A DNA stretch of 64,000 bases from Nocardioidaceae bacterium (GTDB taxonomy: Bacteria > Actinomycetota > Actinomycetes > Propionibacteriales > Nocardioidaceae). Both the position numbers and the translations under genes were made by a program. The notes below the pieces were generated by a model. The model was given only the letters and a program-made list of their open reading frames with translations. It ran no database searches and had not been told where the DNA came from. Location of the stretch: positions 3,025,827 through 3,089,826 of the forward strand of contig CP076053.1 in assembly GCA_018672315.1 (NCBI GenBank), given 5' to 3'. Position 1 is the first letter of the stretch, and each line of letters begins with the position of its first letter. Below, in pieces: positions 10,603 to 15,547 of this stretch.

Positions 10603-12441
10603 GTGACCGACAACGGTGCACCTGCCCGCCCCGACCCGCGAGCGGGTCTGGAGTCCATGAAGATGCCGGAGCTCAAGACCCTGGCGGCCGGGCTCGGCGT
10701 CAAGGGCGCCGGGTCCCTGCGCAAGGGACCGCTGGTCGAGGCGATCCTCGCGACGCAGGGCCTGGGTTCCGGCCGCGCCGGTTCAGCCCCTGCCGGCGAA
10801 GGCCCGCCGGCGAAGGACACGGCAGCGAAGGACACGGCAGCGAAGGACACGGTCGCGAAGGACAAGACAGCAGCGGCTTCCGCCGCGACCGACCGGTCGT
10901 CGGACCAGAAGGCGGACCAGAAGGCGGACCAGAAGTCCGAGCAGAAGTCCGAGCAGAAGCCTCAGCAGAAGACGGACAAGAAGTCGGGTGGGCCCGGGGG
11001 AGAGGCTGACCAGCCCGCGCGGCAGAAGGGCCAGGGCGGTGACTCGCCCGCGCGTGGGAAGAAGCAGGGCGGCGAGGCGTCGGCGGACCAGAAGAACCAG
11101 TCGAACCAGTCGAACCAGTCGAACCAGTCGAACCAGTCGAACCAGGGCGGCCAGCCCCACCGCGGCAACCAGGGCAACCAGGGCAACCAGGGCAACCAGT
11201 CGAACCAGGATGATGACGACGACGAGAACGGCAGCCGCCGCAACCGTCGTCGGCGGGGCCGGGACCGCAACGAGCGCGGCCGCCGGGGCGAGCCGGACCT
11301 CGCCGTGTACGAGGACGACGTGCTCGTTCCTGCGGCCGGCATCCTCGATGTCCTCGACAACTACGCCTTCGTGCGTACGAGCGGCTACCTGCCAGGTCCC
11401 GACGACGTGTACGTCTCCCTGTCGATGGTGCGCAAGTTCGGCCTGCGCCGCGGTGACGCGGTCGTCGGGCAGGTCCGCCAGCCCCGCGAGGGTGAGCGCA
11501 AGGAGAAGTTCAACCCGCTGGTGAAGATCGAGCTCGTCAACGGCGCCGAGCCGGGCCAGACGGGTACCCGCCCGGTCTACGAGGAGCTCACCCCGGTCTT
11601 CCCCGACGAGCGGCTGCGGCTCGAGACCGATCCCGAGGAGATGACCGGTCGGGTGATCGACCTCGTCGCCCCGCTCGGGAAGGGCCAGCGCACCCTGGTG
11701 CTCTCACCCACCTCGGGAGGTCGCTCCACGCTGCTCCGGCGCGTCGCCGCCGCGCTGCCGCAGAACCACCCGGAGTGCCACGTCATGGTCGTGCTCGTCG
11801 ACGAGCGCCCCGAGGAGGTCACCGAGCTGCAGCGTACGGTCCGCGGCGAGGTCATCGCCTCGACCTGCGACCGTCCGGCGACCGACCACACCACCCTGGC
11901 CGAGCTCGCGGTCGAGCGAGCCAAGCGGCTCGTCGAGCTCGGGCACGACGTGGTCGTGCTCTTCGACGGTCTCTCGCGGTTGGCCCGTGCCTACAACCTG
12001 GCGGCGCCTGCGGGCGGGCGGGTCCTCCCCGGTGGTCTCGACACCACGGCCGTGCTGCCCGTGAAGCAGTTGTTCGGCGCCGCGCGCAACGTCGAGGACG
12101 GGGGGTCCCTGACGATGGTGGCGACGGCGGCGGTCGACAACGGGTCCGAGGCCGACGAGATGATCCTGGAGGAGGTCCGGGGGGCTGCGACCGGTCAGGT
12201 GCGCCTGCGTCGGGACCTCGTCGAGAGCGGTCTGGTGCCCGCGGTGGACATCCGGCAGTGCTGGACGCTGCGGGAGGAGCTCCTCGGCGACGCCGCCGGG
12301 TTGGAGCAGGTGCGCGCACTGCGCCAGGAGGCGGTCACGGCCGAGCCGGCCACGGCGGCGGGGGCTCTGTCGGTGCTCCTGGGCCGTCTGGGGTCGCGTC
12401 GGAGCAACGTCGAGGTGCTGAGGAGTCAGGACCGGGCCTGA
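10603..12441 (+). CDS. rho: Transcription termination factor Rho, divergent form with altered P-loop
   Basis: It encodes 612 residues. The N-terminal Rho/SAP-like domain spans about 13-50, followed by a hydrophilic low-complexity insert (about 60-230) with KDTAA, DQKA, NQS and GNQ repeats and a basic RRNRRRRGRDRNERGRRGE tail. The RNA-binding domain is recognisable (DVLDNYAFVRTSGYLPGPDDVYVS is the known region, shown here in part). The ATPase domain keeps VLVDERPEEVTELQR, RLARAYN and GAARNVEDGGSL. However, the usual SPPKAGKT is SPTSGGRS, so the Walker A Lys-Thr is Arg374-Ser375. EEFKGTGN is EEVRGAAT (527-530), and the segment before it reads GSEADE. The gene sits at the expected place between thrB and rpmE. 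ATP hydrolysis is doubtful; a second rho elsewhere is possible. Confidence 0.85.
   Translation: MTDNGAPARPDPRAGLESMKMPELKTLAAGLGVKGAGSLRKGPLVEAILATQGLGSGRAGSAPAGEGPPAKDTAAKDTAAKDTVAKDKTAAASAATDRSSDQKADQKADQKSEQKSEQKPQQKTDKKSGGPGGEADQPARQKGQGGDSPARGKKQGGEASADQKNQSNQSNQSNQSNQSNQGGQPHRGNQGNQGNQGNQSNQDDDDDENGSRRNRRRRGRDRNERGRRGEPDLAVYEDDVLVPAAGILDVLDNYAFVRTSGYLPGPDDVYVSLSMVRKFGLRRGDAVVGQVRQPREGERKEKFNPLVKIELVNGAEPGQTGTRPVYEELTPVFPDERLRLETDPEEMTGRVIDLVAPLGKGQRTLVLSPTSGGRSTLLRRVAAALPQNHPECHVMVVLVDERPEEVTELQRTVRGEVIASTCDRPATDHTTLAELAVERAKRLVELGHDVVVLFDGLSRLARAYNLAAPAGGRVLPGGLDTTAVLPVKQLFGAARNVEDGGSLTMVATAAVDNGSEADEMILEEVRGAATGQVRLRRDLVESGLVPAVDIRQCWTLREELLGDAAGLEQVRALRQEAVTAEPATAAGALSVLLGRLGSRRSNVEVLRSQDRA
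10810..10863 (+). repeat. 15-bp tandem repeat inside rho (KDTAA units)
   Basis: Units of GCGAAGGACACGGCA repeat about three and a half times in frame, encoding AKDTAAKDTAAKDTVAKD. They lie in the low-complexity insert of Rho; a 12-bp GCGGACCAGAAG repeat follows near 10910. Confidence 0.75.
11095..11208 (+). repeat. 9-bp tandem repeats inside rho (NQS and NQG units)
   Basis: AACCAG is followed by five exact copies of TCGAACCAG (11101-11145). After a short gap come four copies of GGCAACCAG (11164-11199) and one more TCGAACCAG. The repeats keep frame and encode NQS and GNQ arrays. Exact codon identity suggests recent slippage or unequal exchange. Confidence 0.85.
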
Positions 12442-12515
12442 CCCGGTGCGGGCTCCTCGACGCCGGACGCCGGACGCGCTGGCCGAAATCGGCCCGCGGG
12501 GACACATCCGGTCGT

Positions 12516-12521
12516 TATGCT
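12516..12521 (+). promoter_or_regulatory. -10-like element upstream of the REC-HEAT-GT2 operon
   Basis: TATGCT lies about 50 bases before the response-regulator ATG, in the 130-base gap after rho. No convincing -35 is seen, so this is a weak prediction. Confidence 0.3.
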
Positions 12522-12571
12522 CCCTCAGACGGGTTGCGTACGCCGCTCGACCAGACCGAAGGGCACCGAAC

Positions 12572-12946
12572 ATGGCCAAGATCGTCGTTGCCGACGATGA
12601 CACGGACATCCGTGAGCTCGTCGTCTTCAAGCTCCGGCAGTCCGGTCACGAGGTCGTCCCCGTCGGCGACGGTGCGGCCGCCGTCGAGGCCTGCCAGGCG
12701 GAGGATCCCGACCTCGTGGTCCTGGACGTGATGATGCCCGGCATGAGCGGCCTCGACGCAGCGCGTGCACTGCGCTCCGACGCACGCTTCCTGGCACTCC
12801 CGATCATCATGCTGACCGCTCGGGCGCAGGAGTCCGACATCGAGCAGGGCTTCGAGGCCGGCGCCGACGACTACGTCGTCAAGCCGTTCAGTCCTCGCGA
12901 GCTCGCATCCCGGGTGGCCGCCGTGCTCGCCCGGAGCCGGGCGTGA
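12572..12946 (+). CDS. Receiver-domain-only response regulator
   Basis: It encodes 124 residues comprising one REC domain with no output domain. Acidic pocket residues D8/D9 (VVADDD), phosphoacceptor D52 (VVLDVMMPGMSG), T82 (IIMLTARAQ) and K104 (DYVVKPFSP) are all present, so phosphorylation-dependent switching should be intact. The start is ATG at 12572. The 3' end overlaps the next gene by four bases (GTGA), and that gene overlaps the glycosyltransferase in the same way. These three genes form a coupled operon inserted between rho and rpmE. No histidine kinase is adjacent; the nearest in this window is the PAS kinase at 31.5 kb. Its output is presumably by protein contact, perhaps with the HEAT protein. 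Confidence 0.9.
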   Translation: MAKIVVADDDTDIRELVVFKLRQSGHEVVPVGDGAAAVEACQAEDPDLVVLDVMMPGMSGLDAARALRSDARFLALPIIMLTARAQESDIEQGFEAGADDYVVKPFSPRELASRVAAVLARSRA

Positions 12947-14016
12947 CCTCCGGGTCCCTCACCTCCCCCTTCCTCCTCGCTGTCCCCACCGCCCTCGCGG
13001 CGTGCTCTGCCGTCGCCCTGGTGGCGACCCTGGTCGTGATGCGTCTGCGTGCGCCCCGGCAGTCGGCGGCGCGTGCCGCCCGGCAGGCGGCGGTGCGTGA
13101 CCTGCTCTTCGCCGCCCTCATGGGTGAGCCCGACGAGGCCGTCGCAGCGCGCGCGGACCTGGGGAGACGTCACGGCGCGGCCTGGTCCGTCGCCGAGCAG
13201 CAGGCGTTCGGCATGCTCCCCAAGATCAAGGGTCATTCGCGCACCGCGCTCGTGCAGGTCCTCGACGACAAGGGAGCCGCCGAGCGCGCCGTCGCGAAGA
13301 CCGCCGCGTGGTCGTGGGTGCGACGCTGCCAGGGGGCGTACGAGCTGGGTGCTCTCGGCGCACGCACGGGCGTACCGATCCTGCTGCCGATGCTCGACGA
13401 CTCGAACTTCGTGGTCAGACGCGTCGCCGTGCGCGCCCTCGGCGCGATCGGGGAGCCCGCGTCGGTGACGCCGCTGCTCCAGGTGGCGGGCGAGGAGCCG
13501 CGGTTGACCAACGACCTCGTCTTCGCTCTCGACCACCTCGCGCTGGACGCCGCCCCTGCCCTGCGGACGGAGCTTCACCGTGCGCTCGAGCAGCGGGGCG
13601 GCGGTGGCCGCCAGGCCGCCCTCGCGGCGACCGGGCTCGGGCTGATCGGCGATGTCGGCAGCGCTGCGCTGTTGGTGCGCGCGCTGGCGTCAGGTCGTCC
13701 GGAGGTGCAGGTGGCGGCGGCGGAGGCACTGGGTCGTCTCGGCGTGCCCGACGCGCTGCCGGCCCTCGTCTCCGCCCTCGAGGTCGATGACGAGGCGGTC
13801 AGGCTCGCTGCGGTGACGGCGCTCGGTGAGCTGGCTGCGGACCAGGCCGCGTCCGCCCTCTCGCGCTGGCTGGACTCCGATCACCACGAGATCGGTCGGC
13901 AGGCCGCAGCCTCGCTGGTGCGTCTGCCGTCGGGTCCGCAGGTCCTGGCGGCGTCGGCGTCGCCCTTCGCCAGGGAGGCCCTCGCGATGGCGCCGTCGCC
14001 TGTCCCGGGGCCGTGA
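12943..14016 (+). CDS. Membrane-anchored HEAT-repeat protein
   Basis: It encodes 357 residues from a GTG overlapping the response-regulator stop. One N-terminal transmembrane segment (about 10-33, SPFLLAVPTALAACSAVALV region) is followed by a basic stretch RAPRQSAARAARQ. The rest is cytoplasmic alpha-helical repeats: HEAT/PBS-lyase-type units recur between about 125 and 335, for example VPILLPMLDDSNFVVRRVAV, then AALLVRALASGRPEVQVAAA, and ALPALVSALEVDDEAVRLAA. Such solenoids are protein-docking surfaces with no catalytic role. Position between a receiver and a membrane glycosyltransferase suggests a scaffold that transmits a signal to it; this is inference from operon structure. Confidence 0.8.
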   Translation: MTSGSLTSPFLLAVPTALAACSAVALVATLVVMRLRAPRQSAARAARQAAVRDLLFAALMGEPDEAVAARADLGRRHGAAWSVAEQQAFGMLPKIKGHSRTALVQVLDDKGAAERAVAKTAAWSWVRRCQGAYELGALGARTGVPILLPMLDDSNFVVRRVAVRALGAIGEPASVTPLLQVAGEEPRLTNDLVFALDHLALDAAPALRTELHRALEQRGGGGRQAALAATGLGLIGDVGSAALLVRALASGRPEVQVAAAEALGRLGVPDALPALVSALEVDDEAVRLAAVTALGELAADQAASALSRWLDSDHHEIGRQAAASLVRLPSGPQVLAASASPFAREALAMAPSPVPGP

Positions 14017-15518
14017 TGTCGATGACCCCGATCGCGGTCTCCGGTGTCGTCGTGACGTGGCTCGTCCTCGTGACGGCTGCGTACGGGGCGCTGCGCCACC
14101 TCGGGCTCCTGGCCCTCACGGGCTCCGCCTTCGCCGAGGCGCGGGTGTATCGGCGGCGTCGGGCCTTCGCGGCGTACGACGAGAGCTTCGGCGACCCGCT
14201 GGCGCGCGGGGTCAGCCTCGTGGTCGCCGTCCGTGACCGTGCCGACGACGTCGTCGACCTGGTGCGCTCGATGACCTCGTTGCGCTACCCGGAGTTCGAC
14301 CTGGTGGTGGTCGACGACGGCTCCGAGGACGGCACGGCGACGGTCCTCGTGGAGGCCCTCGGGCTCCGCGAGGTACCCGTGACCGGTTCCGGTGCTCTGA
14401 TGGTCCGAGCGCCCGTGACCGCCTGCTGGCACGGCCGGCGCGGCGGGGTCGGCGTCACGCTTCTGCGCAAGGAGGCCGCAGGGCTCGCGGACGCGTGGAA
14501 CGCCGGGGCGGACGTCGCTCGTCACCCGCTGTGCGTGGTGGTGGACGCGCAGGTGACCCTCGACCCCGACGCCCTCCTGCACGTCGCCCGCCCGTTCGCG
14601 GACGACCCGCAGCGCATGGTCGCCACCACCGGCGTGGTCCGTGTCCTCAACGGCTGCACGGTGCGCGGCGGACGTGTGACCGAGGTGGCGATGCCGCGAC
14701 GGTGGATCGAGCGGGTGCAGGTGGTGGACTACCTGCAGGGCTTCCTGGTCGACCGGGCCGGGTGGTCCTCGCTCGGGGCGCTGCCCCGTCTGGCTCCTGA
14801 GATCGCTGCATTCCGGCGGGACCGGCTGCGCGAGGTGGGCGGATGGCGCAGCGACCTGGCCCAGCCTCACGTCGAGCTGGTCGCCCGCCTGCACCGGTGG
14901 GCCGGCGACAACGGCCGGGCGGCCCGCCTCGTGTTCGTCACCGAGCCCGTGGCATGGGTCCCGGTGGCCGCTGACCGGGCGGGGGCGATCGCTGCGTCCG
15001 CCCGCGAGCAGGCCGGGGTGGCGACGGCCTTGCGCCACCATGCCCGGCTGCTGGGCAGGTCCCGGTACGGCGCCGCGGGTCTCCTGTCCTACCCGTGGCT
15101 GCTCGTCTTCTCCCTGCTGAGTCCGGTCGTCGAGCTGGTCGCGATGACGCTGAGCGCAGTGGTGCTGGGCGTGACCGCGCTGCGGGTGGCCGGTGTCGAG
15201 GTGGACGCCGCGCTGCCCGGATGGGGTGCGCTCGTGCTCCTTGCGCTGAGCTGGCCGGTGGCCGGGGTGCTCCTGGGGTGGGCGACGCTGCTGGTCGACG
15301 AGCTGTCCCTGAGTCGCTACACCGGCGTACGCGACCTGCTCGCCGCCCTGTGGGGCGTGGTGCTGCTGCACACCGTGTGGCGCTGGTTGACCACCCTGCC
15401 GCGCCTCCGGACGACCTGGTCGATCCTCGCGGGAGGGGCGCAGGCCGGCCGGCTGGGAGATCCTCGTCGCGACTGTCATACTGGTGAGTCGGCCCCGGTT
15501 CACGCTCACCGCCGGTGA
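14013..15518 (+). CDS. Membrane glycosyltransferase family 2 protein with degenerate catalytic motifs
   Basis: It encodes 501 residues from GTG 14013 (or ATG 14016), overlapping the HEAT gene by four bases. An N-terminal membrane segment (about 7-35) is followed by a GT2/cellulose-synthase-like domain with nucleotide-binding VVVDDGSEDG (D101-D102). The family's usual VVDAD is VVDAQ (178-180), so the second DXD aspartate is Gln. The usual GEDMELVVRLHR is QPHVELVARLHR (from 284), so the ED catalytic base is missing. The usual QRNRWxRG position reads REQAGVATA. Several membrane helices follow from about residue 360. It looks like a pseudo-glycosyltransferase derived from an exopolysaccharide-type synthase. 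It may act as a regulator or partner, or use unusual chemistry. Confidence 0.75.
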   Translation: MMSMTPIAVSGVVVTWLVLVTAAYGALRHLGLLALTGSAFAEARVYRRRRAFAAYDESFGDPLARGVSLVVAVRDRADDVVDLVRSMTSLRYPEFDLVVVDDGSEDGTATVLVEALGLREVPVTGSGALMVRAPVTACWHGRRGGVGVTLLRKEAAGLADAWNAGADVARHPLCVVVDAQVTLDPDALLHVARPFADDPQRMVATTGVVRVLNGCTVRGGRVTEVAMPRRWIERVQVVDYLQGFLVDRAGWSSLGALPRLAPEIAAFRRDRLREVGGWRSDLAQPHVELVARLHRWAGDNGRAARLVFVTEPVAWVPVAADRAGAIAASAREQAGVATALRHHARLLGRSRYGAAGLLSYPWLLVFSLLSPVVELVAMTLSAVVLGVTALRVAGVEVDAALPGWGALVLLALSWPVAGVLLGWATLLVDELSLSRYTGVRDLLAALWGVVLLHTVWRWLTTLPRLRTTWSILAGGAQAGRLGDPRRDCHTGESAPVHAHRR

Positions 15519-15547
15519 GCGACCCGGCGACCAGTCAGGAGAAGAGC

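Follow-up and report, generated by a model that had tools for sequence, protein, structure and literature searches.

The rho gene in a 64,000-nucleotide stretch of the genome of a Nocardioidaceae bacterium (GenBank assembly GCA_018672315.1, contig CP076053.1, positions 3,025,827 to 3,089,826; this whole stretch is called the window below) raises a simple question: can Rho be kept, and kept under selection, once the residues of its ATP motor have been replaced? The best reading of our results is that Rho has repeatedly turned into a motor-less RNA-binding protein within the Nocardioidaceae; the job that remains to it we infer. For the window gene itself, we favour with moderate confidence the view that it is a Rho orthologue at its ancestral locus, present as a single copy, that has lost its motor and kept its RNA-binding body. 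Judged by sequence, ATP hydrolysis and 5'-3' translocation are likely to be gone or almost gone.

The features on which this argument draws are as follows, in window coordinates.

10603 to 12441, + strand: rho, 612 amino acids, GTG start (open reading frame (ORF); the only Rho found in the genome)
10648 to 10758, + strand: Rho_N domain (PF07498), residues 16-52 (Pfam, above cut-off)
10759 to 11313, + strand: long, low-complexity N-terminal insert with SNQ repeats, residues ~53-237 (ORF translation)
11335 to 11553, + strand: OB-fold primary RNA-binding domain (PF07497), residues 245-317 (Pfam, above cut-off)
11650 to 12258, + strand: RecA/F1-like motor domain (PF00006 match), residues 350-552 (Pfam, above cut-off; AlphaFold2 model)
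11704 to 11727, + strand: altered P-loop SPTSGGRS, residues 368-375 (alignment to Escherichia coli Rho)
11722 to 11724, + strand: Arg374 (CGC), replacing the Walker A Lys, E. coli K184 (alignment)
11800 to 11817, + strand: DERPEE, kept, with the catalytic Glu (E211) and the Arg valve (R212) (alignment)
11965 to 11967, + strand: Asp455, the Walker B Asp (E. coli D265), kept (alignment)
12004 to 12042, + strand: Q-loop APAGGRVLPGGLD, its basic residue (E. coli K283; mostly Arg in the family) kept (alignment)
12139 to 12192, + strand: R-loop region NGSEADEMILEEVRGAAT, with Glu516 at the E. coli K326 column (alignment)
12268 to 12270, + strand: Leu556, replacing the arginine finger, E. coli R366 (alignment)

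The window Rho has an altered motor site and a conserved RNA-binding domain

Residues were numbered by alignment to the E. coli Rho chain. Compared with that chain, the window protein has Ser for K181, Arg for K184, Ser for T185, Glu for K326 and Leu for R366, and it retains E211, R212 and D265. The Walker A sequence GK(T/S) is replaced by GRS (residues 373-375), and the arginine-finger context, SGT-R-KE in E. coli, reads CWT-L-REE. R541, reported to be the arginine finger of Mycobacterium tuberculosis Rho (PMC8828861), shares the R366 column (SGT-R-KE) if the Protein Data Bank (PDB) chain carries 20 extra residues, as the position of the Arg valve likewise implies. An earlier note on this DNA had described a P-loop SPTSGGRS with Arg374 in an open Rho frame at the usual locus, with GSEADE and EEVRGAAT present and DERPEE and RLARAYN retained, and the ORF and alignment confirm all of this. 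The same note had counted LRRD in place of LDRK among the anomalies; LDRK is in fact the M. tuberculosis reading, and the intact relatives compared read LRRE or LRRD. The loss of the arginine finger, a second motor defect, was absent from that note.

The RNA-binding side of the protein looks different. F64, R66, D78, Y80 and E108 of E. coli Rho, residues of the primary RNA site, are all identical in the window protein, and its OB domain (E. coli columns 52-125) shares 91% identity with the intact-relative consensus. The suggestion that the gene has become an RNA-binding factor was therefore a good guess, as its primary RNA-binding domain is little changed. Also supported are the proposals that the altered ATPase site should abolish or cripple hydrolysis, which here is a prediction from the residues, and that the gene has not simply decayed.

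Identity as Rho rests on domains, place and fold. Rho_N, the OB RNA-binding domain and ATP-synt_ab follow one another in Pfam order as in Rho, and the gene order is thrA, thrC, thrB, rho, the thr genes being named from their ORFs. prfA (identified by Pfam) lies further downstream, behind three additional genes and an L31 leader; the interval between thrB and rpmE-prfA is what we take to be the canonical rho locus. An AlphaFold2 monomer model of the protein has a predicted local distance difference test (pLDDT) score of 83.3. The equivalog model TIGR00767 of NCBIfam (cut-off 509.45 bits) gives the window Rho 465.6 bits, which is below the cut-off, and is also failed by three Lys-less relatives (L046, L020 and L051), with an intact one (L013) at 644.5 bits. 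All five proteins pass NF006886 (cut-off 315 bits; window Rho 429.3), and we therefore expect them still to be annotated as Rho despite the TIGR00767 failures. The model for a short-form Rho paralogue, NF041509, has a cut-off of 628 bits and gives the window protein 433.2.

Motor residues were lost many times in the family

A search of 341 Nocardioidaceae genomes with an intact Rho motor domain as query gave a match in 324, including 281 of the 285 of good quality. Scores varied widely within the large genus g7, apparently Nocardioides. Rho sequences were read from 225 genomes, 209 of them in the family; low scorers were favoured, so that the shares below are not frequencies, and the low-scoring fragmented genomes outside the reading include G087, G094, G305, G309 and G312. 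K184 is kept in 137 of the 209 family sequences and lost in 72 (Arg in 30, Ala in 27, Thr in 9, Val in 2, Asn in 2, Gly in 1 and Ile in 1). E211 is lost in 40 (Thr in 19, Ala in 19, Gln in 1 and Val in 1), and 39 of these 40 also lack K184. R366 is lost in only six; R212 and D265 are kept in all 209, and the T185 column holds Thr or Ser in every one. By K184, E211, R366, R212 and D265 together, 136 sequences are intact. Set against the 324 genomes with a match, the 72 Lys-less proteins give a lower bound of 22%.

Two candidate causes of the change in the window protein are unlikely. A sequencing error at Arg374 is very improbable, as it would need two substitutions (Lys AAG to Arg CGC) and the Arg is accompanied by many other changes in the domain; the Lys codon at this column is AAG in all 137 Lys-keeping family sequences. 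Chance is an improbable cause because Lys is kept at the K184 column in those 137 of 209 sequences and because the changes cluster in clades.

Double loss is also prominent among 32 contigs of a named collection: in 25 of them, all titled Nocardioides, neither the Walker A Lys nor the catalytic Glu is present (L034, L035, L040 to L061, and L064). The remainder comprises one with GRT (L033), four intact sequences (L036-L039) and two Microbacteriaceae metagenome-assembled genomes, L062 and L063 (BACL25 and Pontimonas), with a GKS P-loop, DEQPEA replacing DERPEE and the Arg valve lost.

Catalytic death we infer from published mutants. M. tuberculosis Rho E386A, the equivalent of E211A, is reported to keep its oligomer state and its binding of ATP and RNA and to lose ATPase activity, unwinding and efficient transcript release (PMC4499133). 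From this behaviour, a protein in which both K184 and E211 are replaced should be a dead motor, and for the double-loss Nocardioides clade we are confident that the motor has been lost or crippled. The window protein, in which K184R, T185S and R366L are combined with a retained E211, probably has a lost or crippled motor too, although this is less sure than for the double-loss proteins.

To count origins, we used a FastTree tree of the thrA, thrC, thrB and prfA proteins, covering the 133 family genomes in which two or more of these four genes were present; 76 of the 209 genomes, mostly with short loci, lie outside it. On this tree the K184 state changes at least 18 times and that of E211 at least four times, losses and regains being counted alike. 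There are 19 maximal clades in which all members have lost the Lys. Several consist of a single genome whose sisters keep the Lys, and one holds 15 genomes (support 82). The window genome stands alone in its genus, beside the whole of g7. Thus, the Walker A Lys was lost many times within the Nocardioidaceae. The earlier note had proposed comparing neighbouring species and allowed that they might share the altered sequence; the loss is indeed present in many relatives, but mostly through separate substitutions rather than as one common sequence.

The competing explanation that survives best, which we nevertheless consider unlikely, is that these proteins are still active ATP motors with a rebuilt pocket, in which phosphate binding has passed to Arg184 or to a basic residue at position 181, with a modified arginine contact making up the rest of the site. 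The invariance of R212, D265 and a Thr or Ser at 185 fits this idea, as do the 30 Lys-less proteins with Arg184, the 36 more with Lys or Arg at 181, and the retention of R366 in 66 of the 72. The same 72 sequences include 39 in which the catalytic Glu is lost as well, and a Glu to Ala change alone is reported to abolish hydrolysis in two Rho proteins (PMC4499133). Moreover, six of the sequences have no basic residue at either 181 or 184, and the window Rho has neither a basic residue at 181 nor R366.

K184 is also lost outside the family, in some low scorers from other groups of the phylum (G466, G515, G583, G591 and G641). Two of these and a third genome, all of phylum family f36 (L320, L321 and L324, from G583, G591 and G400), carry a heavily altered Rho with Gly or Val at column 184; the catalytic Glu is Cys in G583 and Ala in G591, and at the arginine-finger column G583 has Tyr and G400 a gap. 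Among 396 phylum genomes with a minimum completeness of 90, 50 gave no Rho match at E<=1e-30. Most of the 20 Rho-negative genomes listed belong to families f26, f39, f47 and f51, and when five of the Rho-negative genomes (G375, G414, G436, G458 and G469) were searched again, weak hits alone were found in four and nothing in one. Rho may be absent from whole families of the phylum.

The altered motor domain is under purifying selection in most close Lys-less pairs

The losses follow a pattern along the protein. Identity to the intact consensus was compared between 95 intact sequences, which also keep K181, and the 72 Lys-less ones. The mean is 0.88 in both groups for the OB domain; it is 0.89 in intact and 0.45 in Lys-less sequences for the P-loop, 0.90 and 0.55 for the R-loop, and 0.72 and 0.35 for the last 37 columns. 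All 72 Lys-less proteins keep F64, R66, D78, Y80, E108, R283, R305 and D328, and K298 is identical in 71; position 62 is Cys in 32. The N-terminal insert has a median length of 193 residues in 64 Lys-less and 184.5 in 126 Lys-keeping proteins (p 0.19; 19 of the 209 were unparsed). Its Gln share is 0.224 in Lys-less and 0.150 in Lys-keeping proteins.

We then estimated the ratio of nonsynonymous to synonymous substitution rates (dN/dS) over the motor domain (E. coli columns 160-375), with borders set by alignment columns in preference to text-motif borders, which partly failed. Pairs were chosen manually; genomes outside the tree occur in 8 of the 20 Lys-less pairs, several pairs come from the same clade and some are not strict sisters. 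Across the 20 close Lys-less pairs the median was 0.049 (range 0.012-0.450, pooled 0.112), compared with a median of 0.041 (maximum 0.185, pooled 0.067) across 20 Lys-keeping pairs. Eight double-loss pairs (K184A/T with E211T/A) lie between 0.016 and 0.058. A separate earlier run on similar pairs gave medians of 0.15-0.21 for prfA and thrB. The motor domain is thus under purifying selection in most close Lys-less pairs. In our reading, change came in a burst around a loss and constraint then returned, which points to a changed job and not to decay. A retained, selected function in the relatives has our high confidence, slightly below that for motor loss in the double-loss clade; for the window protein this conclusion rests on those relatives.

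These figures also bear on relaxed selection, under which Rho is dispensable in the family and its genes are dying slowly, drifting before they are lost. Motor elements do differ among sequences that retain the Walker A Lys (over the whole set, K181 is kept in 104 of 209), one Rho match is divided over two frames (G191, C1:2557425-2558176), another is reported to contain an in-frame TGA (G098, C1:227589-228365), and three close pairs and the pooled value show raised dN/dS. A dying gene is hard to reconcile with motor-domain dN/dS of at most 0.132 in 17 of the 20 close Lys-less pairs, with 207 of 209 sequences in which all six checkpoint columns, placed between the OB domain and column 359, are filled, or with the Rho match in nearly every good-quality genome. 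The OB domain, moreover, is conserved as in intact relatives, and the Arg valve is kept in all sequences read. We judge this explanation improbable.

Antibiotic escape, a second Rho and assembly artefacts

Less probable again is escape from a Rho-directed antibiotic, in which the bicyclomycin-binding ATP pocket was altered for resistance at the cost of motor activity. In its favour, many Lys-less proteins carry changes at the K181, K184, E211 and L320 columns. However, the changes spread across the entire motor domain, M. tuberculosis is reported to resist through a milder Leu to Met change (PMC8828861), and the explanation is silent on the activity that remains to the protein.

Could the window gene instead be a spare paralogue, with a true Rho elsewhere doing the work, as the earlier note had suggested? 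The window genome is a single contig of 3,600,424 bases with 99.36% completeness, and a search of it gave one Rho and no second, the only other two matches being weak (31% and 27% identity). All but six of the 324 matching family genomes have one match each at E<=1e-40, and no second match at that threshold was found in any of the 72 Lys-less genomes. Three family genomes (G033, G107 and G122) do carry a pair of full matches to the Rho motor domain; those in G033 lie about 10 kb apart on C4, at 191862 and 202677, one of them within a 440-residue frame. A spare paralogue is refuted here unless the assembly misses sequence, and we give it next to no credence. A sequencing or assembly artefact is just as implausible; nothing was found in its favour, and both residues are lost in 25 of the 32 collection contigs, many of them from named Nocardioides strains.

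Partner and compensation tests

Decay of the NusG partner in Lys-less genomes was considered and ruled out: all 15 Lys-less and all 15 Lys-keeping genomes checked have a NusG match above the family cut-off.

Two small tests, both of which ignore kinship, looked for compensation. The first used convergent gene ends in one 20 kb stretch per genome, called with a home-made gene caller: 80 ends from 20 Lys-less genomes (18 with ends) and 60 from 20 Lys-keeping genomes (15 with ends). No stronger 3' hairpins were seen in the Lys-less set (mean z -1.04 versus -0.93, p 0.62); the share of ends with z below -2 was 0.20 versus 0.28, and that with T-tracts 0.11 versus 0.22. The second concerned coding purine content, because PMC13323073 ties purine bias to avoidance of Rho, except in lineages that have lost it. 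Coding purine content showed no clear difference between Lys-less and Lys-keeping genomes (0.4905 versus 0.4948, p 0.13), and the comparison of the share of G at third positions gave p 0.06. By orthologue, and uncorrected for relatedness, p was 0.37 for thrA, 0.053 for thrC, 0.27 for thrB and 0.008 for prfA, the last with purine contents of 0.5145 and 0.5181.

What a motor-less Rho might do

Several observations weigh against a motor-less but selected Rho. The catalytic Glu is still present in the window protein, whose substitution at the Lys position, to Arg, is the mildest. Nucleotide may still be bound, to judge from the strict retention of the Walker B Asp and the Arg valve. Change is faster in three Lys-less pairs, G145/G171, G074/G019 and G239/G268, whose dN/dS lies at 0.27-0.45 (individual values 0.27, 0.28 and 0.45); pooled dN/dS is higher in Lys-less than in Lys-keeping pairs (0.112 versus 0.067), and a greedy pairing that includes non-sisters gives higher medians, alike in the two groups (0.155 versus 0.145, p 0.36). 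The window genus has one genome, so that constraint on the window gene is an extrapolation from relatives, and neither 3'-end hairpins nor coding purine content revealed compensation.

Taking the protein to be motor-less, we can sketch how it might work. Motor-less Rho may still form a ring or an open ring, and its primary site and the insert would be the parts that hold C-rich nascent RNA. It might then act without translocating, either by holding or inactivating the elongation complex or by coating and protecting the RNA. The full retention of the Arg valve and the Walker B Asp suggests that contacts between subunits, perhaps with nucleotide, still matter.

Pre-termination structures from E. 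coli are described as having prompted the idea that Rho alters RNA polymerase allosterically before it translocates, and their authors still expected translocation to be needed for release (PMC9908020). That allosteric first step would suit a motor-less Rho bound to RNA and to the elongation complex; a role on free RNA is compatible too. We propose only tentatively that the function lies at the elongation complex and not on free RNA. The fullest form of our reading, in which Nocardioidaceae Rho has turned at least about 18 times into a selected motor-less factor that binds nascent RNA and RNA polymerase without translocating, is if anything slightly more tentative.

Repeated loss of the motor with Rho kept amounts to a set of natural separation-of-function variants, which make it testable how much of Rho's job requires translocation. 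The same question was raised by work from 2021 on 'translocation-independent inactivation', as cited in PMC9908020. Genes named 'Rho' in such genomes may not terminate transcription, and our results suggest that Rho can be useful without its engine.

Genes around rho

rho, rpmE and prfA are usually closer to each other than they are in the window. Here, genes for a response regulator, a HEAT-repeat protein and a family 2 glycosyltransferase (window positions 12446-15518) separate rho from the L31 leader and prfA. The leader, an L31-Actinobacteria ribosomal protein leader (RF03158, 49.6 bits), lies at 15489-15532 and overlaps the end of the glycosyltransferase ORF.

Comparison with known systems

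Catalytic residues are reported to be highly conserved among divergent Rho factors, and Rho to be essential in M. tuberculosis (PMC8828861). In the literature searched (titles and the openings of abstracts, with the 2024 survey by Moreira et al. outside it), we found no natural Rho without the Walker A Lys and no Nocardioides Rho. That survey, on the diversification of Rho, reportedly describes novel variations in the bicyclomycin binding pocket, and part of the Lys-loss pattern may already be in print there.

M. tuberculosis Rho (PDB 7oqh) is the nearest known structure. It shares the architecture of Rho_N, long insert, OB fold and RecA-like domain, is the best PDB sequence match of the window Rho (E 1.1e-139) and is the best fold match of its predicted model (Z 44.1, rmsd 2.4 over 352 residues, 51% identity). 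Unlike the window protein, it has both the Walker A Lys and an arginine finger (R541), and it is described as an ATP-dependent motor (PMC4499133, PMC8828861). E. coli Rho (PDB 1pv4) resembles the model in fold (Z 40.3) and has F64, R66, D78, Y80 and E108 in common with the window protein, which differs from it in Arg184, Ser185, Ser181, Glu326 and Leu366 (E. coli numbering).

The closest functional parallels are laboratory mutants. M. tuberculosis Rho E386A and E. coli Rho E211A reportedly retain their oligomer state and ATP binding, and the former RNA binding as well (PMC4499133), and they resemble the natural replacement of E211 by Thr, Ala, Gln or Val in 40 of 209 family sequences. In contrast to these mutants, 39 of the 40 natural cases also lack K184, and they persist as the only Rho match of their genomes. 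A second parallel is the alpha subunit of F1-ATPase, a ring subunit that is retained but does not hydrolyse ATP; the fold is related, F1 chains matching the model with Z up to 27.9. Unlike the window Rho, for which no catalytic partner was found, the alpha subunit adjoins a catalytic beta subunit. By its domains, locus and fold the window protein is an orthologue of Rho, and its probable motor loss appears, the 2024 survey aside, to be previously unreported.
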